Below, piece after piece: positions 8,512 through 61,957 of a DNA stretch of 64,000 nucleotides. Both the position numbers and the translations under genes were made by a program. Within the stretch, counting starts at the first letter, position 1; every line of letters begins with the position of its first letter. The notes beneath the pieces were generated by a model. The model worked only from the letters and a program-made list of their open reading frames with translations. It was not told the origin of the DNA and made no database searches. Source of the DNA: Rhodocyclales bacterium (GTDB taxonomy: Bacteria; Pseudomonadota; Gammaproteobacteria; Burkholderiales; Rhodocyclaceae); NCBI GenBank assembly GCA_016235805.1, contig JACRIY010000113.1, positions 1 through 64,000 of the forward strand, read 5' to 3'.

Positions 8512-9513
8512 ATGCGCGGCCTTTTGCTGGCATTGGCCCTGTTATTCGCCGTATCGCCAGCGCCGACTCTTGCGCAGATCGGCGACGAAGTCCTGCCGCC
8601 TGCATTTGTCGAAACCCTGCTCGAACTTCCCGACGATGCCGCCCAGGCGGCGAAATTGGGCAAGCGCCTGCTGCTCTATTTCGGCCAGCAGGGCTGTCCC
8701 TACTGCAAGGAGCTGATGCAGACCAGTTTCACGCAGAAGGACATCGTGGACAAGGTGAACAAGCATTTCGTCGCCATCGCCTTCAATCTTTTCGGCGACC
8801 GCGAGGTGACCTGGTTCGACGGCAAGGCACGCAGCGAGAAGGAGTTCGCCAAGTTCCTCAAGGTGCAGTTCACGCCGACGCTGCTGCTGCTCGACGAGAA
8901 GGGCAACATCATCGCCCGCATCAACGGCTACTACCCGCCGCATCGGTTTTCGGCAGCGCTCGACTACTCGGCGCAGCGGCTGGAGCGCAAGCTCGATTTT
9001 GCCGAACACATGAAGGCGGTGCCGCAGACCGGCGCCAGCGCCACGCTCAACGAGCAGCCCTTCTTCGTCAAGGCGCCCTTCGACCTGGCACGCAAGTCCG
9101 GCGGCAAGCCGCTGGCGGTGCTGTTCGAAACCCGCCATTGCGCGCCCTGCGATGAGCTGCACAAGGAAGGCTTCAAGCGCGACGCGACACGGGCCGCGCT
9201 GGCGAGCTTCGATGTCGCGCGCTTTTCGCTCGCGGGCCGCGAGAGCCTGACCACGCCTGACGGCCGCCGCATGACGGCGGAAGCCTGGGGCCGCGAACTC
9301 AAGATCAGCTACACGCCCAGCGTGGTGTTTTTCGACGAACGGGGCAAGGAAGTGTTCCGCCTCGAAGCCTACCTGCGGCCCTTCCACTTCGCCTCGTCCT
9401 TCGAGTACGTCGCCAGCAGCGCTTACAAAAAGGAACCGGAGTTCCAGCGCTTCCTGCAGCACAAGGCCGAGCACATGAAGGAGCGCGGCGAGAAGCTGGA
9501 GCTCTGGAATTAG
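8512..9513 (+). CDS. exported protein with two thioredoxin-like domains
   Basis: Predicted periplasmic protein of 333 residues. A signal peptide (MRGLLLALALLFAVSPAPTLAQ) precedes two thioredoxin-like segments. The first has GCPYCKEL near residue 63 and a cis-Pro-like QFTPTLLLLDEKG; the second has CAPCDELHKEGF near 223 and YTPSVVFFDERG. Both CxxC pairs are intact, suggesting redox activity or thiol delivery. One copy of the 24-bp repeat (8548-8571) encodes part of the signal peptide. It follows lutC by 1 nt, though a role in lactate oxidation is not evident. Its stop abuts the convergent ATPase gene. Confidence 0.85.
   Translation: MRGLLLALALLFAVSPAPTLAQIGDEVLPPAFVETLLELPDDAAQAAKLGKRLLLYFGQQGCPYCKELMQTSFTQKDIVDKVNKHFVAIAFNLFGDREVTWFDGKARSEKEFAKFLKVQFTPTLLLLDEKGNIIARINGYYPPHRFSAALDYSAQRLERKLDFAEHMKAVPQTGASATLNEQPFFVKAPFDLARKSGGKPLAVLFETRHCAPCDELHKEGFKRDATRAALASFDVARFSLAGRESLTTPDGRRMTAEAWGRELKISYTPSVVFFDERGKEVFRLEAYLRPFHFASSFEYVASSAYKKEPEFQRFLQHKAEHMKERGEKLELWN
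8548..8571 (+). repeat. 24-bp dispersed element, copy 1
   Basis: Lies in the signal peptide of the thioredoxin-like protein, translated AVSPAPTL. Differs from the consensus only in using GTA where most copies have GTG. Confidence 0.75.
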
Positions 9514-12222
9514 TTAGCGCCGCAGGCGTTTTTCTATCTCGATGACGACCATCGCCCCCAGCGCGATGGCGCCGATTTCGCCCCAGGCGCGCGCATCGAT
9601 CGCGGTAGTTGCAAAGGCCGCATTGAGCGGCGCCCAGTAGGTGATCGCCAGTTGCAGCAGGATCTGCAACCCGGCCCCCGCCCACACCCAGGGATTGGAG
9701 AAGGCCGGGACCGCCGTCACCGGCAGGCGCAGCGAGCGACAGCTGAACAGATAGACGATCTCGATCGCGACGAAGACGTTCATCGCGATGGTGCGCGCCT
9801 CGGCCATGTCCTGCCCGCGCTCCACGGCCAGCAGGAACATGCCGAACGAACCGGCCAGCATCAGCACGCCGACCAGCACGATGCGGCCGATCAGCACACC
9901 GTCGAGCACCGGCGCACCGGGTGGGCGCGGCGGGCGGCGCATGATGCCATGTTCGGGCGGCTCGAAGGCCAGCGGCAATCCCAGCAGCACGGCGGTGGTC
10001 ATGTTGATCCAGAGGATCTGCAGCGGCGTGATCGGCAGCGTGACGCCGGCGACGATGGCGGCGAGGATCACCATGCCTTCGCCGAAATTGGTCGGCAGGG
10101 TCCAGGTGATGAACTTCACCAGGTTGTCGTAGATGCCGCGGCCTTCTTCGACCGCCGCTTCGATGGTGGCGAAGTTGTCGTCGGTCAGCACCATGGCCGC
10201 CGCCTCCTTCGCCACATCGGTGCCGCCCAGGCCCATGGCGATGCCGATGTCGGCCTGCTTCAGCGCCGGCGCGTCGTTCACGCCGTCGCCGGTCATGGCC
10301 ACCACCTCGCCCTGCGCCTGCAGCGCGCGTACCAGGCGCAGCTTCTGCTCCGGTTCGACGCGGGCGAACACGTCGACGCGGCCGGCGGCGGCGCCGAGCA
10401 TCGCGTCGTCGAGCAGGGCCAGGTCTCGGCCGGTGAGCACTTCGGCCGCCGCGGCATCCTTGACGATGCCGATCTGCCCGGCGATCGCCCGCGCGGTTTC
10501 GGCGTGGTCGCCGGTGATCATCTTCACCCGGATGCCCGCGGCATGGCAGGCGCGCACCGAACTGACGGCGCGCGGCCGCGGCGGGTCGATCATGCCGACC
10601 AGGCCGAGGAAGACCAGTTCGGCGCCGATTGCCGCGTCATCCAGCACCGCGCCAGTGGTGGCGTGGTGCCTTGCCAGCGCCAGCACGCGCAGGCCGCGAC
10701 CGGCCATCTGCGCCGCGGCGGCCTCCACGGCGGCCGTATCGAACGCCGCTTCACCGCCGTCGGCGGCCAGCGCCGTGCGGCAGGCCGGCAGCAGTTTTTC
10801 GATGGCACCCTTGACGTACACGACAGACCGGCCTTCGCTCGCGTGTCGCGTGGCCATGGTTTGGCGTGCCGAATCGAAGGGCAGTTCGTCCTCGCGCGGG
10901 AACGCCTTTCGCAGCGTGGTTTCGTCCAATCCGCCCTTGCGCGCCACCACCAGCAGCGCCGCCTCGGTCGGGTCGCCGGTGATCTGCCATTGCCGGTGTT
11001 CGTGGTAGAGCGCGGAATCGTTGCACAGGGCGCCGGCGACCAGCACCTCGCGCAGCGGGGCAAAAGTCGGCGCTGGTGATACGGCGTTTTCGCCGGTCCG
11101 TTGAATCGCGCCCTCGGGTTTGTAGCCCAGACCGCTGACACTGAAGCTTTCCCCGGCCGCCCACAGTTCGGTGACGGTCATCGCGTTTTCGGTCAGCGTG
11201 CCGGTCTTGTCCGAGCAGATCACCGTGGTGCTGCCCAGCGCCTCGACGGCGGGCAGGTGGCGGATGATGGCGCGGCGCTTGGCCATGCGACTGACGCCGA
11301 TGGCCAGAGTAATGCTCATGGCCGCCGGCAGTCCTTCCGGGATCGCGCCGACGGCCAGCGCCACCGCCGCCATCAACATTGCCGTCATCGCCTCGCCGCG
11401 CATGACACCGATGACGAAGGTGAGGGCGGCGAGGCCGAGGATCACCCACAGCAGCAGGCCGGCGAACTCGCCCATCTTTTTTGTCAGCGGCGTGGCGATT
11501 TCGGGCGCACTGGCGATCAGGCCCGAGATGCGTCCGGTTTCGGTGACGTCACCGGTGGCGACGACGAGGCCATGGCCCTGGCCGGCGACCACGGTGGTGC
11601 CGGCGTAGGCCATGTTGCGCCGGTCGGCGAGCTGGGTGTCCTGCGGCAAACCGTCGTGGTGCTTGTCGATCGGCGCGGCCTCGCCGGTCAGCGGAGCCTC
11701 GACGGTGCGCAACTGGCGGCCGGAAATGATGCGCAGGTCGGCCGGCACCTTGTCGCCGGCGGCCAGCCAGACCACGTCGCCAGGGACGAGGTGCACCGCA
11801 TCCATGCGCCGCCGGCGGCCGTCGCGCAGCACCGTGACCTCGGTCGCCACCGCGCGCGCCAGCGCTGCCAGTGCCGCCTCGGCCTTGCCTTCCTGCAGGT
11901 AGCCGATCAGCGCATTGATGACCACCACGCCGAAGATCACCGAACTGTCCACCCATTCGCCCAGCGCGGCCGTCACCGCGCCGGCGCCGATCAGCACCAG
12001 CACCAGCGGCTCCGTGAACTGGGCGAGGAAGCGCGAGAGCGCGCTGCGTCCGGGTTTCTGGCTGGGGCGGTTGGGGCCGTGGCGTGCCAGGCGCGCCGCC
12101 GCGTCAACCTCGGTCAGGCCGTGGTCCGGTTGCACGCCGTGATCGGCCAGCGCATCGGTCGCGGACAGGGCGTGCCACGCCCGCGCGTCAGACTCGCGTT
12201 GTGGGCTGGGGGGGAGGTTCAT
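9514..12222 (-). CDS. P-type (type II) cation-transporting ATPase
   Basis: Inner-membrane ATP-driven cation pump of 902 residues. In order it shows an N-terminal cation-ATPase domain, actuator motif LTGEAAPIDK, membrane motif VGAIPEGLPA, phosphorylation site CSDKTGTLTE near residue 337, hinge TGDGVNDAPALK near 647, and a C-terminal block of membrane segments. PEGLP and the overall layout match the Ca2+/Na+/H+-type (P2) ATPases, not the heavy-metal CPx type; the transported ion is uncertain. The nucleotide-binding domain contains one 24-bp repeat (translated AVSPAPTF). It converges with the thioredoxin-like gene with no spacer. Confidence 0.93.
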   Translation of the reverse strand: MNLPPSPQRESDARAWHALSATDALADHGVQPDHGLTEVDAAARLARHGPNRPSQKPGRSALSRFLAQFTEPLVLVLIGAGAVTAALGEWVDSSVIFGVVVINALIGYLQEGKAEAALAALARAVATEVTVLRDGRRRRMDAVHLVPGDVVWLAAGDKVPADLRIISGRQLRTVEAPLTGEAAPIDKHHDGLPQDTQLADRRNMAYAGTTVVAGQGHGLVVATGDVTETGRISGLIASAPEIATPLTKKMGEFAGLLLWVILGLAALTFVIGVMRGEAMTAMLMAAVALAVGAIPEGLPAAMSITLAIGVSRMAKRRAIIRHLPAVEALGSTTVICSDKTGTLTENAMTVTELWAAGESFSVSGLGYKPEGAIQRTGENAVSPAPTFAPLREVLVAGALCNDSALYHEHRQWQITGDPTEAALLVVARKGGLDETTLRKAFPREDELPFDSARQTMATRHASEGRSVVYVKGAIEKLLPACRTALAADGGEAAFDTAAVEAAAAQMAGRGLRVLALARHHATTGAVLDDAAIGAELVFLGLVGMIDPPRPRAVSSVRACHAAGIRVKMITGDHAETARAIAGQIGIVKDAAAAEVLTGRDLALLDDAMLGAAAGRVDVFARVEPEQKLRLVRALQAQGEVVAMTGDGVNDAPALKQADIGIAMGLGGTDVAKEAAAMVLTDDNFATIEAAVEEGRGIYDNLVKFITWTLPTNFGEGMVILAAIVAGVTLPITPLQILWINMTTAVLLGLPLAFEPPEHGIMRRPPRPPGAPVLDGVLIGRIVLVGVLMLAGSFGMFLLAVERGQDMAEARTIAMNVFVAIEIVYLFSCRSLRLPVTAVPAFSNPWVWAGAGLQILLQLAITYWAPLNAAFATTAIDARAWGEIGAIALGAMVVIEIEKRLRR
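11062..11085 (-). repeat. 24-bp dispersed element, copy 2
   Basis: Inside the ATPase nucleotide-binding domain. Its orientation matches the gene and it reads AVSPAPTF, the same frame as copies 1, 8 and 11. Confidence 0.72.
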
Positions 12223-12252
12223 GCGGCGATTATCCGACGCCCCGTGCGCCGG

Positions 12253-13368
12253 CTAGTTGATCGCGGGCAAATGCAGGCTGACGACGAGTCCGCGGCCGTC
12301 CGGCCCGTGCTCGAGCAGCAGGCTGCCGCCGTGGAGTTCGGCGATGCGGCGCACGATCGACAGGCCGAGGCCGCTGCCCGGAACGTCAGTTGCCTGTGCA
12401 TCACTGCCGGCGAGGGCCGCCGAAGAGTCGGCGCTGGCGCCACGGCGAAAGCGTTGTTGCACGGCCTCGATTTCCGCCTCCGGAATGCCTTTGCCGTCGT
12501 CGCGGACGCTCAGCACGGCGCGATGGCCCTGCTGTTCGATGGCGACGTCGATGCGGGAAGGCGCGGCGTGGCGCAGGGCGTTGTCTACGAGGTTGCGCAG
12601 CATGGCCTGCAGCAGCGCAACGTCACCGCGCACCCGCGCATCGCCGTCGGCCAGCACCAGGTCGCAGTGGCGCGCGATGGCGCCGCCGGCGGCATCCGCC
12701 AGCACGTCGGCGGCGATCGGGCGCAGGGCCAGTGGCTGCAAGGCCTGCCCGCTGTCGGCGTCCAGCCTTGCCAGGGTCAGCAACTGGGTGAGCAGATGCG
12801 TGGCGCGGTCGCAGCCGACCAGGATCTGGTCCAGCGCGTGGCGGCGCTGGGCTTCATCGGTGGCGGCCAAGGCGACCTGGGCCTGGGCCTTGAGCGCGGC
12901 CAGCGGCGTGCGCAATTCGTGCGAGGCATCGGCCGTGAAGCGGCGCTCGTTCTCAAGGGCCCGGTCGATGCCGGCGAAGAGTTCGTTCAGGCGCTGCACC
13001 AGCGGCAGGATCTCGCGCGGCGTGTCGCTGTCGGCGATCGGCGTCAGCCGGTTCGGCGCGCGGGCGGCGACGTCGTCCGCAATGCGGCGCAAGGGCCGCA
13101 GCGAAATGCCGACCGCGACCAGCAGCACCAGCGCCAGTCCCGGCAGGGCGTAAAGCATCGGCGTCAGCAGGTGCTCCGCAATTTCGCGGGCGAGGTCGGC
13201 GCGCTCCTCCAGCATGTGGCTGGCCGTGGCGGGCGGGTGGTTGAGCAGTTCCTCGACCTCGTGCAGCGCCGAGCGCCAGGTGAACGCGGCGGTAACCAGC
13301 CACACCACCGCCACCGCGGCGGTAGTCAGCAACACCAGGCGCAGCAGCAGGGAGCCGCCCGGCTTCAT
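12253..13368 (-). CDS. sensor histidine kinase (QseC/PmrB-like)
   Basis: Inner-membrane sensor of 371 residues. Two membrane segments (about 8-28 and 73-95) flank a short periplasmic loop; a HAMP-like linker follows, then the phosphoacceptor ADASHELRTPLAAL near residue 151 and an ATPase domain with N box LRNLVDNALRHA, G1 DDGKGIP and G2 GSGLGLSIV. The ATP lid between G1 and G2 contains a 24-bp dispersed repeat (RRGASADSS) and is longer than usual. It overlaps the response regulator by 4 nt. The short periplasmic sensor suits metal-ion or small-ligand sensing; the regulator box downstream of this pair points to a BqsS-like Fe(II)/cation role (inference). Confidence 0.92.
   Translation of the reverse strand: MKPGGSLLLRLVLLTTAAVAVVWLVTAAFTWRSALHEVEELLNHPPATASHMLEERADLAREIAEHLLTPMLYALPGLALVLLVAVGISLRPLRRIADDVAARAPNRLTPIADSDTPREILPLVQRLNELFAGIDRALENERRFTADASHELRTPLAALKAQAQVALAATDEAQRRHALDQILVGCDRATHLLTQLLTLARLDADSGQALQPLALRPIAADVLADAAGGAIARHCDLVLADGDARVRGDVALLQAMLRNLVDNALRHAAPSRIDVAIEQQGHRAVLSVRDDGKGIPEAEIEAVQQRFRRGASADSSAALAGSDAQATDVPGSGLGLSIVRRIAELHGGSLLLEHGPDGRGLVVSLHLPAIN
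12423..12446 (-). repeat. 24-bp dispersed element, copy 3
   Basis: In the ATP-lid region of the histidine kinase, read RRGASADSS. This is the same frame as the murD copy but different from copies 1 and 2. Confidence 0.72.
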
Positions 13369-14030: not shown

Positions 14031-14136
14031 GGGCGGGATTTTAGGTTGGGTTGCAAATGAATCTGTTCGACAAGGCACGGAACTGCAAGAAAACGCGCGG
14101 CACCATGCACGTTGCAATAAGCATACCTTGAACAAG

Positions 14137-14153: not shown

Positions 14154-14270
14154 CATCGGGGCGCAGTCTTCGCTTCGATTGATGTAGATAGCTTGCACGC
14201 CACCCGGGAGCGCGTTTCGCATCAGATAGCGCGAGTTCCGGCCCAGCATGTTTGACGCCCGTACGGGACC

Positions 14271-16981: not shown

Positions 16982-17905
16982 GTGGAAACCGCAGGCGCAT
17001 TGCGCCCATCTCTGACCCGCTACGCCTGGCTGTCCATCGCCGCGGCGCTCGCCACCATCGTGCTCAAGGGCGTGGCATGGAAGCTGACCGGTTCGGTCGG
17101 CCTGCTGTCGGATGCCATCGAGTCCTTCGTCAATCTCGCCGGCGCGCTGATGGCGCTGTGGATGCTGACGCTGGCGGCCTTGCCGGCGGATGACGACCAT
17201 GCGCACGGGCACGGCAAGGCGGAGTATTTTTCCAGCGCCTTCGAAGGCTTCCTGATCCTGCTGGCTGCCGTGAGCATCGGCTATACGGCATTCGAACGAC
17301 TGCTCAATCCGCAGCCGCTCGAAGCGGTGGGAATAGGCCTGCTGGTTTCGGTGGCGGCCTCCGCGATCAATTTCGCCACCGCCCGGGTGCTGCTCGACGT
17401 GGGCCGCAAGCACAACTCGATCACGCTCGAAGCCGATGCGCACCACCTGATGACGGACGTATGGACCTCGGCCGGTGTCATCGTCGGCGTCGGGCTGGTC
17501 TGGGTCACGGGAGCGCTGTGGCTCGATCCGCTGGTCGCGATGCTGGTCGCGGCCAACATCGTGTGGACCGGCTGGCAGCTCATGCATCGTTCGGCCGCGG
17601 GCCTGATGGATATTTCACTGCCGGCGGAAAAGCGGCAGCAAATCGAGTCCCTGCTCGCCGGCTATCGCGCGCAGGGGCTGGACTTCCATGCGCTGCGCAC
17701 CCGCCAGGCCGGCAGCCGCACCTTCGTAACACTACATGTGCTGGTGCCAGGGCAATGGACGGTGAAGCAGGGCCACGACTGGGCCGAACGCATCGAAGCG
17801 GACATTCGCGCCGCCCTGCCCCATGCCCATGTCACTACCCACCTGGAGCCGATCGAGGATCCCCTGTCCATGATCGACAAGGACCTGGACCGGCCGCCGG
17901 GTTGA
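16982..17905 (+). CDS. cation diffusion facilitator (CDF) family transporter
   Basis: Inner-membrane divalent-cation/H+ antiporter of 307 residues. It has about six membrane segments, the metal-binding [15 protein letters not shown] in TM2, the His-rich loop [31 protein letters not shown] in TM5 and a cytoplasmic C-terminal domain. DxxxD/HxxxD-type metal sites are intact, which suits Zn2+, Fe2+, Mn2+ or Co2+; the ion is not decided. The GTG at 16982 has GAGGAG 7 nt upstream. It follows the octaheme operon in the same direction after 117 nt, which fits with a metal-responsive regulon. Confidence 0.92.
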
Positions 17906-17933
17906 GTCCGGGCCCTTGTCCCGTTTTTGTTGC

Positions 17934-17957
17934 CGTGTCACCAGCGCCGACTCTTCA
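17934..17957 (+). repeat. 24-bp dispersed element, copy 4
   Basis: The clearest copy outside a gene; it abuts the stop codon of the cytochrome remnant. Confidence 0.75.
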
Positions 17958-18078: not shown

Positions 18079-18651
18079 TCATGTGCTGCGCTTCTTCCAT
18101 CCGGTGATCATCGCCGTGACCAGGTTTTCACCATGCAGCCAACTGCTGACGACCACGCCGGCCAGGTGGATCACGACCATTGCCATCATGCCGTTGGCGG
18201 CGGCTTCATGGACTTCTTCCATGAAATGCCCGCCGAATTCGTTGTAGGTGGCATAGCCGCTGGCGGCGGCGGTGATGCCGAAGCCGAGCAGCAGGAAGAT
18301 CGCCACCGCGCCGGCGGGATTGTGGCCGACGTAGTGCCGCGGCGTTCCGGCCAGCAGTGACTTCAGGTAGTCGATGACCTTGGTCGGCGTCGGAACGAAG
18401 TCGGCGAAGCGCGAATGGCCGCCGCCGACTAAGCCCCACAGGATGCGGAAGGCGATCAAGCCGGCCATGGCGTAGCCGGCCAGGACGTGGATGTCGCGCA
18501 GCTTCTCGGATTCCGAGGTGACGAAGGCGACGACGAAACTGGTCGCCAGCGACCAGTGGAAGATGCGCGTCGGCAGGTCCCAGACGCGAACCCGTGTGCC
18601 ATCAGTGCCGGCATCGGCCGGCTCCAAAGCTGCGCTTTGCTGTGCGTTCAT
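18079..18651 (-). CDS. cytochrome b561-type membrane protein
   Basis: Inner-membrane diheme b-type cytochrome of 190 residues that passes electrons between quinones or cytochromes. After a short hydrophilic N-terminus, four membrane segments follow, with histidines suited to heme ligation in RIFHWSLA, RDIHVLAGYA, EEVHEAAANG and VIHLAGVV. GHSRFADFV and YVGHNPAGA loops match the cytochrome_B561/Ni-hydrogenase b-subunit type. ATG 18651 (MNAQQSAAL) lies 8 nt after the diheme cytochrome stop, so both are co-transcribed. Confidence 0.9.
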   Translation of the reverse strand: MNAQQSAALEPADAGTDGTRVRVWDLPTRIFHWSLATSFVVAFVTSESEKLRDIHVLAGYAMAGLIAFRILWGLVGGGHSRFADFVPTPTKVIDYLKSLLAGTPRHYVGHNPAGAVAIFLLLGFGITAAASGYATYNEFGGHFMEEVHEAAANGMMAMVVIHLAGVVVSSWLHGENLVTAMITGWKKRST

Positions 18652-21466: not shown

Positions 21467-21564
21467 GCGGCAGGATGATACCGGGGTAGTGACCGGCAAC
21501 AGCGGTAAAATCGACCGAGTCGAAACAGTCGGCGCCGGTGCGACGGCGTCCAGCCAGTGATCCC

Positions 21565-32490: not shown

Positions 32491-34058
32491 GTGCCGCGAT
32501 GACCCTCCTTGAACAGCTCAGGGCAAAGGGCGTGACGCCGACCCGCCTGACCGCCGACTCGCGCCGCGTGCAGCCCGGCGACGTTTTCGTCGCCTTTCCC
32601 GGCGCGCACGTCGATGGCCGCGATTTCATCGCGCAGGCCGTGGCGCGAGGTGCTTCGGCAGTGCTCGCCGAAGCGGGTGGCGGTGCCGCTCCAAGAGTCG
32701 GCGCTGGCGCTACGGCGTTCATTGAGGTCACCGAACTCGGCAGGCTGTCCGGCGAGATCGCGCACCTCGTCTACGGCCGGCCTTCCGAGAAACTTTGGGT
32801 CGCCGGCATCACCGGTACCAACGGCAAGACCTCGATCTCGCAGTGGATCGCCCAGGCGATGGATGGGCTGGCGTCTCTGCCGCCGGGCCGCCCCAAGGCA
32901 GAGACTTCCTTGGGGACGGAGTCGCGCAGCGACGAACCACCGTCACCCCTTTCCATGGGAAAGGGGCCGGGGGAAAGGCCCCATAGGTGTGCGGTGGTCG
33001 GCACCCTGGGCAACGGCTTCGTCGATGCGCTGGCCGAGTCGCCCAACACCACGCCCGACGCGATCACCCTGCATGCCGCTCTGGCGGGATTCGTCGAGCA
33101 CGGCGCCCAGGCCTGCGCGATGGAGGTGTCCTCGATCGGGCTCGACCAGGGACGGGTGAATGGCGTTGCTTTCGATGTCGCGGTGTTCACCAACCTGACG
33201 CGCGACCACCTCGAATACCACGGAAGCATGGAGGCCTACGCGACGGCCAAGGCGCGGCTGTTCGCGATGCCCGGCCTCGGTGCCGCGGTGCTCAACCTAG
33301 ACGATGCCTTCGGCATCGAACTGGCGCAGCGCCTCCGCGGCCGGCTGCCGATCCTGGGTTACACGCTGGGTGATGCGGCCACCGCATGCGACGACGTCCT
33401 GCGCGCCGACAACCTGCGCATGGGTGCGGCGGGAATCGAATTCGAACTGCGCGGCATGACGATAGCCGCGCCGGTAGTGGGCCGCTTCAATGCTTCCAAC
33501 CTGCTGGCCGTCGCCGCTGCGCTCCTCACTCGTGGCGAATCGCTCGACGCGATCGCGGCGGCATTGCGCGGCATTCATCCGCCGCCGGGGCGCATGCAGG
33601 CGCTGGGCGGACACGGCCAGCCACTGGTGGTGGTCGATTACGCGCATACGCCGGATGCGCTCGAAAAGGCGCTCGGCGTGCTGCGCGAAACCGCCGCCGC
33701 GCGTGGCGGCAAGCTGGTCTGCGTGTTCGGTTGCGGCGGCGAGCGCGATCCCGGCAAGCGGCCGCAAATGGGCGCGATCGCCGAACGCCTGGCCGACCGT
33801 GTTTTGGTCACCAGCGACAACCCCCGCAGCGAAGACCCGCAGGCCATCATCGACGCGATCCTGGGTGGCATGAAGTCGCCGCCGCCGGTGCAGGTCGAGC
33901 GCGACCAGGCGGTGGCATCCGCCATCGCGACGGCGGATGCGTGCGACGTGATCCTGCTGGCCGGCAAGGGGCACGAGCCCTACCAGGAGATCGCCGGCAC
34001 GCGCCATCCTTACTCCGACCTCGATGCCGCAAAGTCGGCGCTGGTGGCACGGCGATGA
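32487..34058 (+). CDS. murE: UDP-MurNAc-L-Ala-D-Glu:meso-DAP ligase MurE, with repeat-encoded insertions
   Basis: Cytoplasmic ligase that adds the third peptidoglycan stem residue. ATP loop [11 protein letters not shown] lies near residue 108 and the DNPRSEDP motif predicts meso-diaminopimelate as substrate. The 523-residue frame is open, but contains repeat DNA in three places: a 24-bp element (residues about 69-77), an extra segment of about 37 residues at 129-166 made by a hairpin repeat (PPSPLSMGKG), and a 24-bp element at the C-terminus (KSALVARR). Without these it is close to family length. The GTG start overlaps ftsI and the stop overlaps the murF ATG. Confidence 0.95.
   Translation: MSAAMTLLEQLRAKGVTPTRLTADSRRVQPGDVFVAFPGAHVDGRDFIAQAVARGASAVLAEAGGGAAPRVGAGATAFIEVTELGRLSGEIAHLVYGRPSEKLWVAGITGTNGKTSISQWIAQAMDGLASLPPGRPKAETSLGTESRSDEPPSPLSMGKGPGERPHRCAVVGTLGNGFVDALAESPNTTPDAITLHAALAGFVEHGAQACAMEVSSIGLDQGRVNGVAFDVAVFTNLTRDHLEYHGSMEAYATAKARLFAMPGLGAAVLNLDDAFGIELAQRLRGRLPILGYTLGDAATACDDVLRADNLRMGAAGIEFELRGMTIAAPVVGRFNASNLLAVAAALLTRGESLDAIAAALRGIHPPPGRMQALGGHGQPLVVVDYAHTPDALEKALGVLRETAAARGGKLVCVFGCGGERDPGKRPQMGAIAERLADRVLVTSDNPRSEDPQAIIDAILGGMKSPPPVQVERDQAVASAIATADACDVILLAGKGHEPYQEIAGTRHPYSDLDAAKSALVARR
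32693..32716 (-). repeat. 24-bp dispersed element, copy 5
   Basis: In the MurE N-terminal domain; opposite orientation to the gene, translated RVGAGATA. Confidence 0.72.
32873..32985. repeat. hairpin repeat (family B) inserted in murE
   Basis: Reverse-oriented relative of the lutB-lutC repeat. GTCTCTGCC (32873-32881) / GGCAGAGAC (32897-32905) flank the same CCGGGCCGCCCCA centre, then GTCAC and CCCTTTCC / GGAAAGGG (about 32943-32966). It keeps the reading frame open. Confidence 0.7.
34030..34053 (-). repeat. 24-bp dispersed element, copy 6
   Basis: Encodes the MurE C-terminus (KSALVARR), just before the overlapping murF start. Confidence 0.65.
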
Positions 34059-36590: not shown

Positions 36591-38023
36591 TGAAACTCGC
36601 AGGCAGACACGTCCTCATCCTCGGCCTCGGCGAATCCGGCCTGGCCTGCGCGCGCTGGTGCGCGCGGGCTGGCGCGCGGGTGCGCGTGGCGGATACGCGG
36701 ACGGCGCCGCCCTACCTCGACGAGTTGAAACGCCGTGTCGCCAGCGCCGACTTTCGGCCCGGCGAGTTCGACAAGGACCTGCTGGAAGGCGTCGACCTGC
36801 TGGTGCTGTCGCCGGGGCTCTCCGGCGGCCTGATGGTGGTGATCCACGCCCGCGCCGACGGGATTCCGGTGCTCGGCGAAATCGAGCTCTTCGCGCATGC
36901 CTTGCGCGACATGAATGCAAGCCGATCCCATGTGCCGCCGGTGCTGGCGATCACCGGCACCAACGGCAAGACCACGACCACGGCGCTGACCGGCCACCTG
37001 CTGCGCGCCACCGGGCGTACCGTCGGCGTCGCCGGCAACATCTCGCCGGCGGCGCTGACCGCGCTGATGGACGCGCAGGATGCGCAAGCCCTGCCCGAGG
37101 CCTGGGTGCTGGAACTGTCGAGCTTCCAGCTGGAGACCACCGAGACCCTGAATCCGGTCGCGGCAACCGTGCTCAACATTTCCGACGACCACCTCGATCG
37201 CTACATCGACATCGAGGAGTACGCGTCGGTAAAGGCCAGGGTGTTCCAGAGCGGGGCCGGCGCGCCGTGCATCCAGGTGCTCAACCGCAATGATCCGCGG
37301 GTGTGCCGGATGGTGCTGCCCGATCGCCAGATCGTCAGCTTCGGCCTCGATGCGCCGGCCGCCGCCGAGGATTTCGGCCTGCGCGTGCAAGGCGGCGAAA
37401 CCTGGCTGGTACAGGGCGCGAACTTCCTGCTGCCGGTTTCGGAACTGCCGCTGGCCGGCCTCCACAACGCGGCCAACGCGATGGCCGCGCTGGCCCTGTG
37501 CGCGAGTCTTGGCGTTGGCGCGACGGACCTGCTGCCGGCGCTGCGCAGCTTCCGCGGCCTGCCGCATCGCGTGGAAAAAGTCGCCGAACTCGACGGCGTC
37601 ACCTGGTACGACGACTCCAAGGGCACCAACGTCGGCGCCACGGTGGCGGCACTGGTGGGGCTGGGCGGTGGCATCGGTCGCAAATCCGTTGTCATTCTTG
37701 GTGGGGATGGGAAACAACAGGATTTTTCGCCGCTGCGCGATGTCGTGGCGAGTCACGCCCGCGCCGTGATCCTGATCGGTCGCGACGGCCCGCTGATCGG
37801 CAAGGCGATCGCCGGCGCCGGCGTCGCCGTCGAGGCCGCCGCCGACATGGACGTCGCCGTGCGTCGTGCCGCCGCGCTGGCGCAGGCGGGCGATGCCGTG
37901 CTGCTGTCGCCGGCCTGTGCCAGCTTCGACATGTACCGCAACTACGAACATCGGGCGCAGGTGTTCGTCGCCGCCGTTCGTGCGCTGGCGGCGACGAGCG
38001 AAACCGGGGCGGGACAATCATGA
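36590..38023 (+). CDS. murD: UDP-MurNAc-L-alanine:D-glutamate ligase
   Basis: Cytoplasmic ligase adding D-glutamate. The 477-residue protein starts [17 protein letters not shown], carries the ATP loop [13 protein letters not shown] near residue 121, [23 protein letters not shown] and [14 protein letters not shown] 24-bp repeat (RRVASADFR) lies in the N-terminal domain. It overlaps ftsW by 4 nt. Confidence 0.97.
36732..36755 (+). repeat. 24-bp dispersed element, copy 7
   Basis: In the MurD N-terminal domain, read RRVASADF; one base short of the usual CTTT end. Confidence 0.73.
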
Positions 38024-39296: not shown

Positions 39297-40366
39297 GCCA
39301 AACCCTGCTCGTCATGGCCGGCGGCACCGGCGGCCACATCATGCCGGGGCTGGCGGTGGCCGAGCATCTGCGCGCGCAGGGCTGGAAGATCGCCTGGATG
39401 GGCAATCCGGATGGCATGGAAGCGAAGCTGACCGCCGGGCGCGGTTACGAAATGGCCTGGGTCAAATTCACGGCGCTGCGCGGCAAGGGCCTGCTGCGCA
39501 AACTGTTGCTGCCGCTCAATCTGCTGCGCGGCTTCAGCCAGGCCTGGTCGCAGCTCAAGCGCATCCGGCCCGACGTGGTGCTGGGCATGGGCGGCTACGT
39601 GAGCTTTCCGGGCGGCATGATGGCCTCCTTGCGCGGCATCCCGCTGGTGCTGCACGAACAGAATTCGGTGGCCGGGCTGGCCAACCGGGTTCTCGCCGGA
39701 GTGGCCGACCGCATCCTCGCCGGCTTTCCCGGCGCGCTGACGAAGGCCGACTGGGTGGGCAACCCGGTGCGCCCTGAAATCGCCGTGTTGCCGGCGCCGA
39801 CTCTTCGTTACGCGCAGCATCAGGGTCCGCTGCGGATTCTGGTGGTGGGCGGCAGCCTCGGCGCACAGGCGCTGAACGAAGTCGTGCCCAGGGCGCTGGC
39901 GCTGATCGCCGAGGACGAGCGTCCGCAGGTGGTGCACCAGGCCGGGGAAAAGCACCTGCCGCTGCTGGAAAGCCATTACCTCGCGGCCGGGGTCAAGGCC
40001 AATTGCGTGGCCTTCATCGAGGACATTGCGGGCGCCTATGAGTGGGCCGACCTGGTGATCTGCCGCGCCGGCGCGCTGACGGTGGCGGAACTGGCCGCCG
40101 CCGGCGTCGCCAGCCTGCTGGTGCCGTATCCGCACGCGGTGGATGACCACCAGACGGGCAACGCACGCTTCCTCAGTTCCGCCGGCGCCGCGATCCTGCT
40201 GCCGCAGGACCAATTGACGCCGCAGCGGCTGGCGGAGATCCGAACACTTTCGCGCGGCCAACTGGCGCAGATGGCGGAAAAGGCGCGGGAACTGGCGCGG
40301 CCCGAGGCCACGGCAAGCGTCGCGCAGGCCTGTGCCGAACTGGCACGGAAAGGAAAACCGGAATGA
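39293..40366 (+). CDS. murG: UDP-GlcNAc:lipid I GlcNAc transferase
   Basis: Membrane-associated glycosyltransferase making lipid II. The 357-residue protein has [19 protein letters not shown] near residue 8, [23 protein letters not shown] and a C-terminal UDP-binding [16 protein letters not shown] 24-bp repeat encodes VLPAPTLRY between the two domains. Its stop overlaps the murC start by 4 nt. Confidence 0.97.
39782..39805 (+). repeat. 24-bp dispersed element, copy 8
   Basis: In the MurG interdomain linker, translated AVLPAPTL; two bases differ from the consensus (TTG and CCGG). Confidence 0.68.
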
Positions 40367-41751
40367 AGCACAAGGTCAAACGCATCCATTTCGTCGGCAT
40401 AGGCGGGTCCGGCATGTCGGGCATCTCCGAGGTGCTGGCGAATCAGGGCTACGAGGTCAGCGGCTCGGACCTCGGCGAGAGCGCGACGACGCGACGCCTT
40501 GCGGCACAGGGCATCCGCATCGCCATCGGGCACGACGCGCAGAATGCCGCACAGGCCGACGCGGTGGTGGTATCCACGGCGGTGAAGGAAGACAACCCCG
40601 AGGTGCAAATGGCGCGCCAACGCCGGGTGCCGGTGGTGCCGCGCGCGCAAATGCTGGCCGAACTGATGCGCCTCAAGCAGGGCATCGCGATCGCCGGCAC
40701 GCACGGCAAGACCACCACCACCAGCCTGGTTGCCTCCTGTCTCGCCGAAGGCGGCTTCGATCCGACCTTCGTCATCGGCGGCCGGCTCAACTCGGCCGGC
40801 GCCAACGCCAAGCTCGGCAGCGGCGAATTCCTTGTCGCCGAGGCGGACGAGTCGGATGCTTCCTTCCTCTTCCTCTCGCCCGTGGTCTCGGTCGTCACCA
40901 ACATCGACGCCGACCACATGGAGACATACGGCCACGATTTCGGCCGCCTGAAGCAGGCCTTCGTCGATTTCCTGCACCGACTGCCCTTCTACGGCGTCGC
41001 CGTGGTCTGCGGCGACGATCCCAACGTGCGCGACATCATCCCGCGCGTGGCCAAGCAGATCGTCACCTACGGCATCGATCGCGAGGCGAGCTTTCGCGCC
41101 GAGGACGTGGTGGCCGACGGCGGCACCATGCGCTTTACCTGCGTGCGGACCAACGGCAGCGTCAGTCGCCTGCCGATCACGCTCAACCTTCCCGGCCGCC
41201 ACAACGTGCTCAATGCGCTGGCGGCGATCGCCGTGGCCACGGAAGTCGGCGTTGGCGACACGGCGATCGTCAAGGCGTTGGCGGACTTTCGCGGAGTCGG
41301 CCGCCGCTTCCAGCGCTATGGCGAAGTCGCCTGTCCGAGCGGCGGCAGCTTTACCTTGGTCGACGACTACGGCCACCATCCGGTGGAAATGGCGGCGACG
41401 CTGGCGGCGGCGCGCGGCGCCTTCCCCGGCCGCCGCCTGCTGCTGGCCTTCCAGCCGCACCGCTATACCCGCACGCGCGACTGCTTCGAGGATTTCGTCA
41501 AGGTGCTCGGTGGTGTCGACGGGCTGCTGCTGGCGGAAATCTATGCCGCCGGAGAGGCGCCGATCATCGCCGCCGACAGCCGCGCGCTGATCCGTTCCCT
41601 GCGCGTGGCAGGCAAGGTCGAGCCGGTCTTCGTCGAGGACATCGCCGCCATGCCGGGCGCGATCCTGGCCGCCGCGCGCGACGGCGACGTGGTGATCACC
41701 ATGGGCGCCGGTTCCATCGGCGGTGTTCCCGGAAAGCTCGTCGATGGCTGA
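40363..41751 (+). CDS. murC: UDP-MurNAc:L-alanine ligase
   Basis: Cytoplasmic ligase adding the first stem residue. The 462-residue protein has [20 protein letters not shown] near the start, ATP loop [13 protein letters not shown] near residue 110, [23 protein letters not shown] and YGHHPVEM. It overlaps murG (4 nt) and murB (8 nt). Confidence 0.97.
41241..41264 (-). repeat. 24-bp dispersed element, copy 9 (divergent)
   Basis: In murC, read EVGVGDTA. The residues also fit MurC well, so chance resemblance is possible. Confidence 0.4.
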
Positions 41752-49930: not shown

Positions 49931-52660
<2,730 letters not shown>

Positions 52661-52670: not shown

Positions 52671-53753
52671 TTGCTGCCCGACGTGAGCGACGATGCGCCC
52701 ACCCTGCGCGAGGACGGGGATTGCATCGTCATCCTAGACCAGACCCTGCTGCCGGGGCAGACCCGCTTCGTCGCCTTGCGCAGCCTCGATGACACCGCCC
52801 ACGCCATACGCGTCATGCAGGTGCGCGGCGCGCCGCTGATCGGCGCCACCGCCGCCTACGGCGTGGCCCTCGGGCTGGCGGAAGATGCCAGCGATGCGCG
52901 GCTTGAGCGGGTGATCGAAATCCTGGCGGCAACGCGACCGACGGCGGTCAACCTGCATTGGGCGCTGGGGCGCATGCGGCGCGTGCTGCAAAAGTCGGCG
53001 CTGGCGACACGGCGGCAATCCGCATGGAACGAGGCGCGGGCGATCGCCGAAGAAGACAAGTCGGCGAATGCAGCGATCGGGCAGCATGGATTGCCGCTGA
53101 TAGCCGCGATCCATGCTGCCTTCGGCAACGAGAAGAACAATCCCCCCAGCCCCCTTTCCGGGAAAGGGGGTGACTATTTCAGGCAGGCTGCGCCTGCAAC
53201 TGTCAATGTCATGACCCACTGCAACGCGGGTCGCTTGGCCACCGTCGCGCACGGCACGGCGCTGGCGCCGGTCTATGCGGCGCATGCCGCGGGCATCCCG
53301 GTACATGTCTGGGTGTCCGAGACTCGGCCGCGCAACCAGGGCCTGCTCACTGTCTGGGAACTTCGCGAAGCCGGCGTGCCGCATACGCTGATCGCCGACA
53401 ACGCCGCCGGCCTGCTCATGACGCAGGGCAAGGTCGACCTGGTGATCGTCGGCGCCGACCGCATTGCGGCCAACGGCGATGCGGCGAACAAGGTCGGCAC
53501 CTATCTGAAGGCACTGGCGGCGCGCGCGAACGGCGTGCCGTTCTACGTCGCCGCCCCGCTGTCGACCATCGATTTTGCGTGCCCGACGGGCGCCGACATC
53601 CCGATCGAGGAGCGCGCCGCGGAGGAACTCGGGGCCGGTCAGACGCCGGTCGCCAACCCGGCTTTTGACGTGACGCCCGCCGCCCTGATCGACGGCATCG
53701 TTTCCGAGCGCGGCGTGGCGCTGGCGGGCGACCTGATGCGGTGGAAATCGTGA
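52671..53753 (+). CDS. mtnA: S-methyl-5-thioribose-1-phosphate isomerase, with repeat insertions
   Basis: Isomerase converting 5-methylthioribose-1-phosphate (or the 5-deoxy analogue) to the ribulose form. RGAPLIGATAAYG, catalytic Cys in MTHCNAG near residue 184, GADRIAANGD near 263 and NKVGTY are present. Two segments are repeat-derived: KSALATRR at about 107-114 (24-bp element) and about 20 residues at 158-178 with PPSPLSGKG (hairpin family). Start TTG 52671 follows GAGGG; GTG 52683 is an alternative. The aldolase gene overlaps its end. Confidence 0.93.
   Translation: MLPDVSDDAPTLREDGDCIVILDQTLLPGQTRFVALRSLDDTAHAIRVMQVRGAPLIGATAAYGVALGLAEDASDARLERVIEILAATRPTAVNLHWALGRMRRVLQKSALATRRQSAWNEARAIAEEDKSANAAIGQHGLPLIAAIHAAFGNEKNNPPSPLSGKGGDYFRQAAPATVNVMTHCNAGRLATVAHGTALAPVYAAHAAGIPVHVWVSETRPRNQGLLTVWELREAGVPHTLIADNAAGLLMTQGKVDLVIVGADRIAANGDAANKVGTYLKALAARANGVPFYVAAPLSTIDFACPTGADIPIEERAAEELGAGQTPVANPAFDVTPAALIDGIVSERGVALAGDLMRWKS
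52990..53013 (-). repeat. 24-bp dispersed element, copy 10
   Basis: In mtnA, read KSALATRR, the same frame as the murE C-terminal copy. Perfect match to the consensus core. Confidence 0.75.
53144..53205. repeat. hairpin repeat (family B) inserted in mtnA
   Basis: CCCCTTTCC / GGAAAGGGG followed by GTGAC, as in the lutB-lutC copy. It encodes PPSPLSGKG, nearly identical to the MurE insertion. Confidence 0.7.
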
Positions 53754-54394
53754 GCGGCCGCAGCGCCGAACTCGCGGCAACGGTCCTCGCCACGGCGCGT
53801 GCAATGAATGCCTCGGGCATCAACCGCGGCAGTGCGGGCAACGTCAGTGCGCGCAGCAAAGGTGGATTCATCATCACTCCGACCGGCATGGCCTACGATG
53901 CCTGCTCCGCCGACGACATGGTGAAAGTCGGCGCCGACGGCACGGCGAGCGGAACGCGCAAGCCTTCGTCCGAATGGCGCTTCCACCGCGACATCTATGC
54001 CGCGCGCCCGGAGGCCGGTGCCGTGGTGCACACCCATTCTCCGTTCGCCACGGCGCTGGCCTGCCAGGGGCAGGGCATTCCGGCCTTTCATTACATGGTG
54101 GCGCGCTTCGGCGGCCGCGACGTGCGCTGCGCGGCTTATGCCACCTTCGGTAGTCAAGCGTTGTCCGATGCCATCATCGTCGCCCTGAACGGGCGCAGCG
54201 CTTGCCTGATGGCGCACCACGGCATGGTGGTATTCGGCCGTGACTGCGATCACGCCCTGGCGCTGGCGGTGGAACTGGAAACGCTGTGCGAGCAGTACTG
54301 GCGGGTGCTCCAACTGGGTGCGCCGCGGCTGTTGCCGGAAGCCGAGATGAGTCGCGTGCTGGCCCAGTTCGCCACTTACGGCCAGCAGGAGTGA
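53741..54394 (+). CDS. class II aldolase (fuculose-1-phosphate aldolase-like)
   Basis: Predicted Zn2+-dependent aldolase of 217 residues. INRGSAGNVSAR, an acidic residue in SSEWRFHRDIY, zinc His pair in VVHTHSPFA near residue 98 and AHHGMVVFG near 164. It is coupled to mtnA (stop and start overlap), which points to the DHAP shunt: cleavage of 5-methylthioribulose- or 5-deoxyribulose-1-phosphate to DHAP and an aldehyde. MtnB dehydratase has the same fold and is the alternative. GTG 53750, exactly overlapping the mtnA stop, is an alternative start. Confidence 0.82.
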   Translation: MEIVSGRSAELAATVLATARAMNASGINRGSAGNVSARSKGGFIITPTGMAYDACSADDMVKVGADGTASGTRKPSSEWRFHRDIYAARPEAGAVVHTHSPFATALACQGQGIPAFHYMVARFGGRDVRCAAYATFGSQALSDAIIVALNGRSACLMAHHGMVVFGRDCDHALALAVELETLCEQYWRVLQLGAPRLLPEAEMSRVLAQFATYGQQE

Positions 54395-57530: not shown

Positions 57531-57664
57531 CGAATCGGGGAACCGGGAGACGGCGCGGACAGTCGACGCCAGGGAATAGTGGTTGAGGTATTGAATTTCG
57601 CAGTTTGAGTGGGATAATCAAACGCCGGATTCGCTGGCTGGACAGTATTTGCGTACACACATCA

Positions 57665-59686: not shown

Positions 59687-61128
59687 CCAGCCGCCGAGAC
59701 GACCTGTCGCGTAGCGGCGATCCGCACAGCAAATTGCGGCGCAGCCTGTTGCTGGGTGGAAGCGCCGGTCTGGCGCTGGGCTCCATGGCGGTCTCCAGGA
59801 ATCTGCTCGCGCAGACGGGGGGTGATCCGGTTCAGGACATCTACGCACCGCGCGCAAAATATGCGCTGCTGATCGGCAATCGCGACTATCCGAATCGCAA
59901 GGACATTGCCCCGGCCCACAAGAATGTCACCGACCTCAAGGACGTCCTTGAGTATTACGAGTTCAAGGTCAAGGATTACCGCGACCTCGATGCACTGGGA
60001 ATGCTGCGGGTCATGACCGAATTCGCTGCGGAACTGCGCAGCGTCGGCGAAGGCAACCTGCCCGGTTCCGTCGCCGTGGTGTTCTATTTCTGCGGCCACG
60101 GTTTCCAGTCAGCCGGCCGCAACTACCTGGTGCCGGCAGGCATTGATCCATCGTCGGAAAAGGCGCTCAGTGCATCGCTGCGCCTGAACGAAGACATCCT
60201 GGTGGCCTTGCCGCAGCGCTACCCCGGCATCAGCATCGCGCTGATCGATGCCTGCCGTACCGATCCCTTCATTCGGCGCGGAGTGGACGACTTCAATCAG
60301 ATCGCCGCCCCCGAAGGAATGCTGGTGTTTTTCGCTACCCGCGCCGGACGTCCGGCTCTGGCACCGATCAGTCCGGATCGCAATACATTCTTTGCCGGCG
60401 CCCTGGTTGACGTGCTGCGCGATGCCAATGGCGTGACACCGGTCGACGACTTGTTTCGGATTGCCGCCGTCGAATGCCAGGCGCGCGTCAAGGCCGAGTT
60501 CGACAAGGTCAAGCTGACCATTCCGCCCCAGTTTCCGGAAAGCACGGGCAACCTGCGGGGCCGTTTCGTGATTCGTAATCGCCAGCTGGAATTGCTCAGG
60601 ACACGCAAGGGCCCAAGCTTGATCGGCGTCGATTCGACGCTGATGGAGCGGCGCTGGCAAGCCATCCAGGAGACCCTTCGTCCGGCGAGCCTGATCCGCC
60701 TCTGCCAGGACTTCGAGCGGGACTTTCCGGCCAGCGAGTTCAGCCAGCAGATCCGGGTGACCATCAGCGGCGCGCAGCAGGCGCTGGACAGCCAGCGTTC
60801 GGCGCGAATCTCGGGCGACCTCTTCGTCGAGGCGGCGGGCGACAAGGGCTATCGTGACGACTTGCTGAAGGCCCTGCGCGGCGACAAGGATGCGGCGCAC
60901 CGGATCGCGATTGCCTATCGGGACGGCGTTTCGGGCGTTGCCGCCAATCCGCGGCGTACGGAACAATGGCTGCGCTTTGCTGCCGAACTGGGCAACGGCA
61001 TCGCCAGTTGGGAACTGTCCGAAATTTACAACCAGAGCGACCAGGTCGGCGACGCCGCGCGGTTCGAGAAAAAGGCTCTCGACCTCGGTTACCGCCCGCC
61101 GCCGAGGCTGGCGACGCGTGGTTACTGA
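59683..61128 (+). CDS. caspase-like peptidase with C-terminal Sel1-like tail
   Basis: Predicted exported peptidase of 481 residues. Residues about 15-45 carry a twin-arginine-like KLRRSLLLGGSAGLALG signal, then a caspase C14 domain (about 55-260) with His in YFCGHGFQSAGRNYLV (H139) and Cys in LIDACRTDPF (C191). From about 336 a Sel1-like tail ends in TRGY and is paralogous to most of the next protein. GTG 59683 overlaps the previous stop (GTGA), so translation is coupled. Functions of such peptidases in bacteria include programmed death and envelope processing; not decided here. Confidence 0.87.
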   Translation: MTSRRDDLSRSGDPHSKLRRSLLLGGSAGLALGSMAVSRNLLAQTGGDPVQDIYAPRAKYALLIGNRDYPNRKDIAPAHKNVTDLKDVLEYYEFKVKDYRDLDALGMLRVMTEFAAELRSVGEGNLPGSVAVVFYFCGHGFQSAGRNYLVPAGIDPSSEKALSASLRLNEDILVALPQRYPGISIALIDACRTDPFIRRGVDDFNQIAAPEGMLVFFATRAGRPALAPISPDRNTFFAGALVDVLRDANGVTPVDDLFRIAAVECQARVKAEFDKVKLTIPPQFPESTGNLRGRFVIRNRQLELLRTRKGPSLIGVDSTLMERRWQAIQETLRPASLIRLCQDFERDFPASEFSQQIRVTISGAQQALDSQRSARISGDLFVEAAGDKGYRDDLLKALRGDKDAAHRIAIAYRDGVSGVAANPRRTEQWLRFAAELGNGIASWELSEIYNQSDQVGDAARFEKKALDLGYRPPPRLATRGY

Positions 61129-61957
61129 CGGCGAACACGGAATACGGAATCGAAAGGGCCGGAAGTTATCCTTGGCCGCCGTGTCGCCAGCGCCGACTTT
61201 CCTCTTCGGGCAATCGCTGTTCCGAGGCGGTATTGCAATATTTCTGGGCTTGGGCATCAGCCAATGGGCAGGGGCCGCGATGGCGCTCGAACCGATCCGC
61301 AAGTCGGCTGGCGAAAGCAAGGTCTCGGAATCCCACAAGATGGCCCCGCCCCGCAGGACGGCGCGAAACGTCAAAAAGCCCGTGCAACGCAAAAAATCGG
61401 TCGATCCGGCAGGATATCGATCGACGGAACGAGCCTCATTGCCGACGTCGGCAAGCTTCGGATCGTCCGGAACGGACGATTGCTGGGAGCAGCTTCAGGC
61501 GGCGCGAAGGCCGGTCCAGGTCCTACGTGTCAGCGAGGCATGCGAAGCGAACCATCCCGGTGGAGAGTTTGCCGGCGAGATGCGGAAGCTTGCCAATGGA
61601 GCCGGCAAGGTGCTGGAAATCCAGCAAGCAGTCGGGCTTTCGGGCGACTTCTTCGAGGATCCGGTCGGGAATCCGGCCTATCGCCTCAACCTCGACAAGG
61701 CAGCGCGCGGCGACAAGGATGCTGCATACCTTGTTGCGATCGCCTACCGGGTCGGCACATCCGGCGTGACGAGCAATCTGCGGCGGATGGAGCAATGGCT
61801 GCACATTTCCGCCGGATTGGGCAATGGGCTGGCGAGTTGGGAACTCGCCGAATACTATAACTACGGCGGGCGGGTCGCCGACGCCGCCCGCTTCGAAAAG
61901 CGGGCGTTGGAATTAGGCTACAAACCCGCGTTTCGCCTGCCTACTCGCGGCTATTGA
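61118..61957 (+). CDS. exported protein paralogous to the caspase tail (Sel1-like)
   Basis: Protein of 279 residues with no peptidase domain. A hydrophobic stretch (GIAIFLGLGISQWAGAAMA) looks like a signal peptide, followed by a basic linker and, from about 134, a region closely related to the tail of the upstream caspase: ARGDKDAAYLVAIAYR versus LRGDKDAAHRIAIAYR, and both end TRGY. The start is uncertain: GTG 61118 (11-nt overlap), TTG 61172 with GGAAG upstream, or GTG 61181 inside a 24-bp element. A protein partner or inhibitor of the caspase is possible but not shown. Confidence 0.72.
   Translation: MVTDGEHGIRNRKGRKLSLAAVSPAPTFLFGQSLFRGGIAIFLGLGISQWAGAAMALEPIRKSAGESKVSESHKMAPPRRTARNVKKPVQRKKSVDPAGYRSTERASLPTSASFGSSGTDDCWEQLQAARRPVQVLRVSEACEANHPGGEFAGEMRKLANGAGKVLEIQQAVGLSGDFFEDPVGNPAYRLNLDKAARGDKDAAYLVAIAYRVGTSGVTSNLRRMEQWLHISAGLGNGLASWELAEYYNYGGRVADAARFEKRALELGYKPAFRLPTRGY
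61178..61201 (+). repeat. 24-bp dispersed element, copy 11
   Basis: Near the start of the paralogue gene, read AVSPAPTF, and includes a possible start codon. Confidence 0.72.

Follow-up and report, generated by a model that had tools for sequence, protein, structure and literature searches.

Why does one short sequence recur, in either orientation and in any reading frame, along a bacterial chromosome? The question is raised by a stretch of 64,000 nucleotides from a Rhodocyclales bacterium (assembly GCA_016235805.1, contig JACRIY010000113.1, positions 1 to 64,000; the whole stretch is hereafter called the window). A preliminary description, made from the letters alone, had noticed a 24-bp element scattered through its genes and had proposed either a small element that disperses or a signal used genome-wide, for instance in uptake, segregation or recombination. 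We found a two-block motif of about 25 bp, CGCCGT-NYCR-CCAGCGCCGACTYTT, and observed its enrichment, its constraint as DNA, its origin by substitution at the sites compared and its use in both orientations, as well as inverted pairs located between convergent genes, a range limited to scattered genera, and import-like clusters. Taken together, these observations point to a putative genome-wide DNA uptake sequence in a third family, with letters unrelated to those already described, a reading to which we give a probability of about 0.78.

A two-block motif enriched throughout the genome

The motif was aligned from 56 sites of G000, the draft genome that contains the window (3.83 Mb, 130 contigs, 80% complete), and from 41 sites of G002, a congener assembled as a single contig; the sites came from samples of 464 kb (window included) and 400 kb, respectively. 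Its full form is CGCCGTNYCRCCAGCGCCGACTYTT, that is, a near-invariant CGCCGT, a loose linker of four bases, CCAGCGCCGACT, which is fixed in the alignment because it was the criterion for selecting sites, and then pyrimidines. Outside these ~25 bp, just a weak A/T preference is seen over ~3 bases on the left side. In the window, the core CCAGCGCCGACT has nine exact matches while 0.05 are expected from dinucleotide shuffles (0/100 shuffles reach nine), and TCGCCAGCGCCGACT has 16 matches with at most two mismatches while 0.62 are expected.

Over the whole of G000, the 12-bp core was counted 168 times forward and 189 times in reverse (357 copies), compared with 2 + 2 = 4 copies of the control, the core pattern read backwards. 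The two strands are nearly equal in G002 (225/223), and the motif is the top overrepresented 12-mer in both samples in our own ranking. The count on both strands across the genome and its relatives, which the preliminary description had suggested, thus bears out the second of its two options, a genome-wide signal. Strong overrepresentation over a whole genome and on both strands is also what characterizes the DNA uptake sequence (DUS) of the Neisseriaceae.

The motif is maintained as DNA

Strong sites, defined by at least 22/25 motif positions, were counted in called coding sequence and again after 100 shuffles in which synonymous codons were permuted within genes, so that every protein and the codon usage were kept. 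The G000 sample holds 65 such sites versus a shuffle mean of 3.3 (largest 9), and the G002 sample 35 versus 1.2 (largest 5). The enrichment therefore survives the codon-preserving test proposed in the preliminary description, run here on the 464-kb sample of G000 rather than on the whole genome. All six reading frames are used in G000, although unequally (25, 17, 14, 9, 3 and 2 sites), and four of six in G002.

Third codon bases were then compared in ten genes, at unchanged residues and fixed motif positions; only alignments of at least 45% identity were used, and changed residues as well as Met and Trp were left aside. In 13 motif-rich relatives, third bases were identical at 307/333 places (92%) inside the motif versus 27744/41467 (67%) outside. 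The corresponding values were 50/64 (78%) versus 67% in four motif-poor congeners (P = 0.06), and 26/41 (63%) versus 64% in three outgroup genomes, one of which (G048) has the motif elsewhere in its genome. Motif-rich relatives thus keep the motif codons for the same residues, where unrelated codons would have spoken for the peptide. Conservation of a peptide was rejected on the codon-shuffle excess and on this third-base conservation, and the motif is maintained as DNA irrespective of the reading frame, as the preliminary description had concluded from the frames alone.

The motif appears by substitution rather than by insertion

Five sites of the window, two in murE and one each in murD, murG and murC, were compared with their orthologues in 20 other genomes; some orthologous stretches are cut by contig ends, and only rows spanning a site were used. 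At the murD site, at least 22/25 positions are kept in 13/19 relatives, including G067, G037 and G048 from three other genera, while the motif-poor or outgroup genomes G016, G052 and G060 retain 17/25, 15/25 and 15/25. The inner murE site is identical (25/25) in G002, G007, G017, G067 and G037 and absent in G005, G008, G013, G018 and G048, all of them motif-rich elsewhere. Around this site (32693), and likewise in the stretch after the murD site, some relatives show indels, both with and without the motif.

These comparisons bear on the first option of the preliminary description. A tiny mobile element, or one resembling miniature inverted-repeat transposable elements (MITE) or repetitive extragenic palindromic (REP) sequences, inserting into genes would account for many near-identical copies and for their presence on viral contigs, including the contig at locus L264 with five copies 316-385 bp apart. 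However, change at the five mur sites is base by base, with no inserted block: the motif-poor congener G016 has the length of the window at all five with other letters, the outgroups G052 and G060 likewise in murD, murG and murC, and information stops near the motif edge. Judged from these alignments, the motif arises by substitution and not by insertion at the five sites, where a mobile or MITE element was rejected on the comparison of copies present and absent. We consider such an element the least probable of the explanations weighed here, and the dispersing element of the preliminary description is not retained.

Sites are concentrated between convergent genes

Intergenic sites (at least 21/25) are in excess in both samples, with 15/88 versus 8% expected in G000 (P = 0.006) and 30/71 versus 14% in G002 (P = 5e-9), expectations that derive from crude gene calls. 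At the threshold of 22/25, 7/15 of the intergenic sites in G000 (P = 3e-4) and 11/27 in G002 (P = 3e-5) lie between convergent genes, while ~10% are expected. Two close inverted pairs occur in the 400 kb of G002, both between convergent genes and 30 and 31 bp apart from start to start; the hairpins that they form have arms of 25 and 23 bp without any mismatch. Such terminator-like placement of inverted pairs is a property of uptake sequences, and convergent gaps are enriched in copies in both samples.

It could be argued from this placement that the motif is a transcription terminator or regulatory site and nothing else, since its density reaches 2.1-2.9 per kb in convergent gaps versus 0.1-0.5 per kb in other gaps. 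Yet called genes contain, on one strand or the other, 70/88 sites in G000 and 39/71 in G002 (at least 21/25), and just two pairs less than 100 bp apart were found in the 864 kb of both samples, so that this explanation seems highly improbable.

The orientation of the sites to replication, which the preliminary description had proposed to examine, was followed in G002. Assigned by position, with the first and last stretch omitted, 33 sites are leading and 24 lagging (P = 0.29), and at most 41/65 are leading by any assignment that we used. Strong replication polarity is excluded, and with it the strong orientation bias of Chi and of FtsK-orienting polar sequences (KOPS), so that a strongly polar segregation or Chi signal was rejected. 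Chi sites are 5-8 bp long and clearly oriented with replication. A Chi-type recombination hot-spot or self-mark, read by an enzyme like RecBCD or AddAB, would be in line with a motif that is overrepresented, non-palindromic and genome-wide, and with a possible weak leading-strand excess, but the present motif has ~25 bp and is at most weakly oriented, which makes this explanation very unlikely. Among the functions offered by the preliminary description, uptake fits best; the lack of strong polarity speaks against signals of the Chi or KOPS kind, although a weak bias is possible.

Range of the motif across genera

The short core is found in all 30 congeners sampled (20-548 copies; control 0-7 per genome). 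Among 42 other genera of the family, three have 155-486 copies and the other 39 have 0-18, and the range is 0-11 in 48 genomes sampled from the remaining families of the order. The longer pattern GCCGTNNCNCCNGCGCCGACT separates 53 of 395 family genomes, each with at least 30 copies, from the other 342, which have 0-12 (control 0-1), and motif-rich genera amount to 6 of the 68 sampled in the family. These are g1 (22/23 genomes with at least 30 copies, the exception being G016 with 8), g19 (16/19, the exceptions being G317, G329 and G394 with 0, 3 and 12), g94 (4/4), g112 (9/9), and g8 and g38 with a single genome each.

A scan of named genomes gave at least 119 stretches labelled Sulfuritalea, Rugosibacter, Sulfurisoma, Rhodocyclaceae or Rhodocyclales, a few being labelled Burkholderiaceae, beta- or Gammaproteobacteria; the named hosts thus carry these or broader labels and do not lie in the Neisseriaceae. 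For 22 chosen loci, the corresponding whole genomes hold 49-408 copies, the lowest value being that of the one metagenome-assembled genome labelled S. hydrogenivorans. By their counts on the two strands, five genomes labelled Sulfuritalea match genomes of g1 (including UWPOB_SULF1, which matches G017), CROMO_A_203, also labelled Sulfuritalea, matches g19, four Rugosibacter match g112 and one Sulfurisoma g94. G017 is the nearest to the window in MurG among 37 genomes, and g1, the genus of the window, would accordingly correspond to Sulfuritalea.

In a MurG-MurC tree of 21 genomes, in which 8/18 inner branches are unsettled, the motif-poor congeners G016, G001 with G027, and G025 stand at separate places among motif-rich ones, and the motif was therefore probably lost repeatedly. 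Slight dialects are also seen: seven genomes from g8, g38, g19, g94 and g112 have the final T of GCCGT...ACTNT in 89-98% of their 21-mers, versus 74-76% for two g1 genomes. No comparable 12-mer, as another dialect would give, was found in 80 kb each of G034, G055, G047, G052 and G071 from motif-free genera, samples in which a motif of such density would give just ~8-10 copies. The top 12-mer of G071 comes from one local tandem array with a 6-bp unit (CTTTGG/CTTTGGC-type; L190:12391-12450).

Clusters in motif-poor genomes and copies on viral contigs

Some of the few copies that motif-poor genomes have are near one another. We picked 12 such places in eight genomes (G052, G133, G382, G207, G391, G132, G070 and G054; L429-L440), each with two to five sites (at least 21/25) within ~10 kb, an apparent clustering. 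Thirteen of the 20 proteins scanned there have a Pfam family, either accessory or mobile (four DNA methylases or SIR2-type proteins, an integrase, an ABC transporter, a glycosyltransferase, NUDIX and DUF4143) or ordinary (MurJ, a sulphate permease, a Crp-type regulator and an NMT1-like protein). From their gene content, the clusters are probable imports from motif-rich donors, and contamination is unlikely for those of G052 because this genome is a single contig.

Viral contigs of IMG/VR also carry the motif, which rules out its strict absence from viruses. With one ascertained copy per locus removed, its density is 0.47 per 10 kb on viral contigs versus 1.35 at named chromosomal loci, the latter having been found with a slightly narrower pattern than the viral ones. 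A label of self is expected to be rarer in phages, and the motif is indeed rarer there, at about one third of the chromosomal density, yet present. Twelve of the 120 viral loci have a G+C content below 53%, unlike the hosts, and some of these low-G+C contigs are probably real phages. Good motif copies are seen on the viral contigs of L238, L241, L296, L298, L300, L330 and L346, with 49-53% G+C unlike hosts. The array at L264:882-2239 is a repeat containing the motif, with five copies on one strand spaced by 316, 316, 316 and 385 bp.

The range and these clusters also bear on a further explanation, namely that the motif is a chromosome-wide binding site for a protein that organizes the chromosome in segregation, nucleoid occlusion or condensation. 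Genome-wide spread, both orientations and conservation of the DNA at orthologous sites would fit such a site, as would a possible weak leading-strand excess (41 versus 24). However, there is no strong polarity, and a patchy occurrence in 6/68 genera, with poor species inside rich genera (G016, G317, G329 and G394), does not resemble that of a housekeeping function. The inverted pairs found between convergent genes also speak against this explanation, as do the copies on viral contigs and the import-like clusters. We regard this explanation as unlikely, although less so than the other three.

Competence genes and the search for a receptor

At the gene level, competence machinery is present, with both ComEC and type IV pilin genes. 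ComEC-type matches were obtained in 32/32 genomes searched, 31 of them over the cut-off and the exception at a contig end (control: 12/14 genomes match, 5 over the cut-off). Pilins of the ComP_DUS family were found in 36/36 genomes (control 0/14) and pilins of the GspH/FimT type in 22/22 (control 4/14). The ComP-like pilin of G000, used as a query, has some match in all 37 genomes; the best match is weak (E = 4e-15 to 5e-9) in G001, G008, G012, G013, G020 and G067, and 5e-24 or better elsewhere. A ComP_DUS pilin is not supported as the receptor, the family being present in motif-free genera and the matches being weak in five motif-rich genomes.

We also compared 99 pilin-like open reading frames, taken from stretches that cover all 118 PF07963 places in eight genomes and from one 17-kb stretch of G000. 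By single linkage at E 1e-6, which gives coarse clusters that could hide subfamilies, no cluster was found in all of G002, G008, G067, G223 and G374 and in none of G016, G317 and G052. The specificity of a receptor may come down to a few residues within a shared pilin, or it may reside in a different protein. As a separate observation, two orthologous pilin-like genes, at L394:946-970 (G067) and L410:5531-5555 (G374), carry a 25/25 motif in their leader peptide, where it reads AVPPAPTF directly before the prepilin cleavage motif.

Copies in the window

The ten clear copies and the divergent one listed in the preliminary description were all recovered at their positions, as was its weaker match at 53923; a copy at 21524 is as good as the latter (Table 1). 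The preliminary description had placed nine of the ten clear copies in or at the edge of open genes; with our crude gene calls, eight are inside called genes and those at 17932 and 61178 between them, although the last is also spanned by a longer open frame. The neighbouring gene 59683-61125 has a caspase-like match (NCBIfam EACC1-associated caspase, 49.5 bits) that does not reach the curated cut-off of 140.

Table 1. Motif copies in the window. Mismatches are counted against the 24-mer consensus; gene boundaries are those of a crude gene caller.
Copy	Mismatches	Position	Strand	Context
motif copy	0	8548..8571	+	sense, near the start of gene 8512-9510 (+) with weak DsbD/TsoB-like similarity; read AVSPAPTL
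motif copy	0	11062..11085	-	within P-type ATPase gene 9517-12222 (-)
motif copy	1	12423..12446	-	within sensor-histidine-kinase-like gene 12256-13368 (-)
motif copy	0	17932..17955	+	between convergent genes: CDF cation efflux 16982-17902 (+) and weak cytochrome b similarity 18082-18651 (-)
weak copy	4	21524..21547	-	not in the preliminary description
motif copy	1	32693..32716	-	antisense in murE
motif copy	2	34030..34053	-	antisense, 3' end of murE, adjoining the start of murF
motif copy	1	36732..36755	+	sense in murD
motif copy	2	39782..39805	+	sense in murG
divergent copy	3	41241..41264	-	antisense in murC; at least 22/25 positions kept in 11/20 relatives
motif copy	0	52990..53013	-	antisense in S-methyl-5-thioribose-1-phosphate isomerase (mtnA) gene 52671-53750 (+)
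weak copy	4	53923..53946	-	
motif copy	1	61178..61201	+	between called genes 59683-61125 and 61580-61954; spanned by open frame 60890-61957

Discussion

As a DNA uptake sequence, the motif would act as a ~25-bp, non-palindromic, two-block label of self, which a surface receptor belonging to the type IV pilus competence machinery would recognize whichever way it is oriented. Cells would preferentially bind and take up free DNA bearing it, for the most part DNA of their own or related species, and recombine it into the chromosome. Biased uptake and recombination would then multiply and maintain the label wherever it is tolerated, at permissive codons of all frames and especially in the gaps between convergent genes, where inverted pairs could double as terminators. 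We infer that competence is the process behind the motif; a pilin would be its receptor and biased transformation the means of its spread, and the motif-poor congeners would represent losses.

Several observations weigh against this reading. Published uptake cores have 9-12 nt, fewer than the ~25 bp of the motif, whose letters also differ from those of DUS and of the uptake signal sequence (USS) of the Pasteurellaceae. The 464-kb sample of G000 yielded no close inverted pair (at most 100 bp). Local GC skew, used to assign all 20 stretches of G002, places 41 sites on the leading strand versus 24 on the lagging one (P = 0.046), so that a weak leading-strand excess is possible. The competence genes do not discriminate, since ComEC and ComP_DUS pilins also occur in genera without the motif, and ComEC and GspH partly in the controls; five of the six genomes with weak ComP-like matches are motif-rich (G008, G012, G013, G020 and G067), and the absence of a pilin cluster that separates the compared motif-rich genomes from the motif-poor ones belongs here too. 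Finally, at least 120 viral stretches carry the motif, which is therefore not a purely chromosomal label.

Beyond the uptake function itself, we give an even chance to the fuller proposal that this is a third, independently evolved system for uptake of self DNA, in environmental Rhodocyclaceae, with an unusually long motif, rich in information, common to several genera and lost repeatedly, and with a receptor that is not of the known ComP type. Sulfuritalea and Rugosibacter are free-living. Uptake sequences are the standard example of how bacteria select DNA from their own kind, and a 2025 paper gives Neisseriaceae and Pasteurellaceae as the only families known to have them. If the present reading is true, a third, unrelated case in environmental bacteria would show the strategy to be independent of life on a host and to have evolved more than twice. 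Gain, dialects and apparent loss within one family would amount to a replicated evolutionary experiment on selection versus molecular drive. A motif common to several genera would also permit gene exchange across them, and could be used in metagenomes to trace how genes move from one lineage to another. A literature search that covered few subscription papers and preprints found no description of the motif, or of uptake sequences in Rhodocyclaceae, Rhodocyclales or Accumulibacter, in agreement with the preliminary description, whose author knew of no family with this sequence.

Comparison with known systems

The GCCGT block of the motif, GCCGTCT in some copies, is also present in the meningococcal DUS, while the remainder differs. 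Compared by eye, the motif does not show the DUS letters around the inner CTG, a CTG on its reverse strand being a three-base match. The likeness to DUS, which is recognized by the receptor ComP, lies elsewhere: many copies in both orientations and in permissive intragenic places, inverted pairs (tied to terminators in DUS), slight dialects, lineages of the family without the motif, and genes for ComP_DUS-family pilins in Rhodocyclaceae genomes. The differences are the letters, the length (~25 bp here versus up to ~13), the family of the hosts, and the fact that ComP-like pilin matches are weak in five motif-rich genomes and that no pilin cluster in the genomes compared tracks the motif. Published uptake sequences have hundreds to thousands of copies per genome (PMC2346458), with terminator-linked inverted pairs, dialects that follow phylogeny, permissive regions and lineages without the sequence (PMC12616744, PMC3630211).

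With USS, the motif shares a discontinuous form with a core and further conserved bases, a genome-wide distribution and inverted pairs (terminators in USS); it differs in that the Hin-USS core AAGTGCGGT is not in the motif and the family is unrelated. The reverse strand of the motif, AAAGTCGGCG, resembles the Hin-USS core just with a one-base gap, from which we draw no conclusion. Like Chi and the polar signals of the type of KOPS or FtsK recognition sequences (FRS), the motif is overrepresented and non-palindromic, but it is at most weakly oriented to replication, much longer and confined to few genera. Because its letters differ and it is longer, we class the motif neither as DUS nor as USS, but as a candidate new type of uptake sequence.

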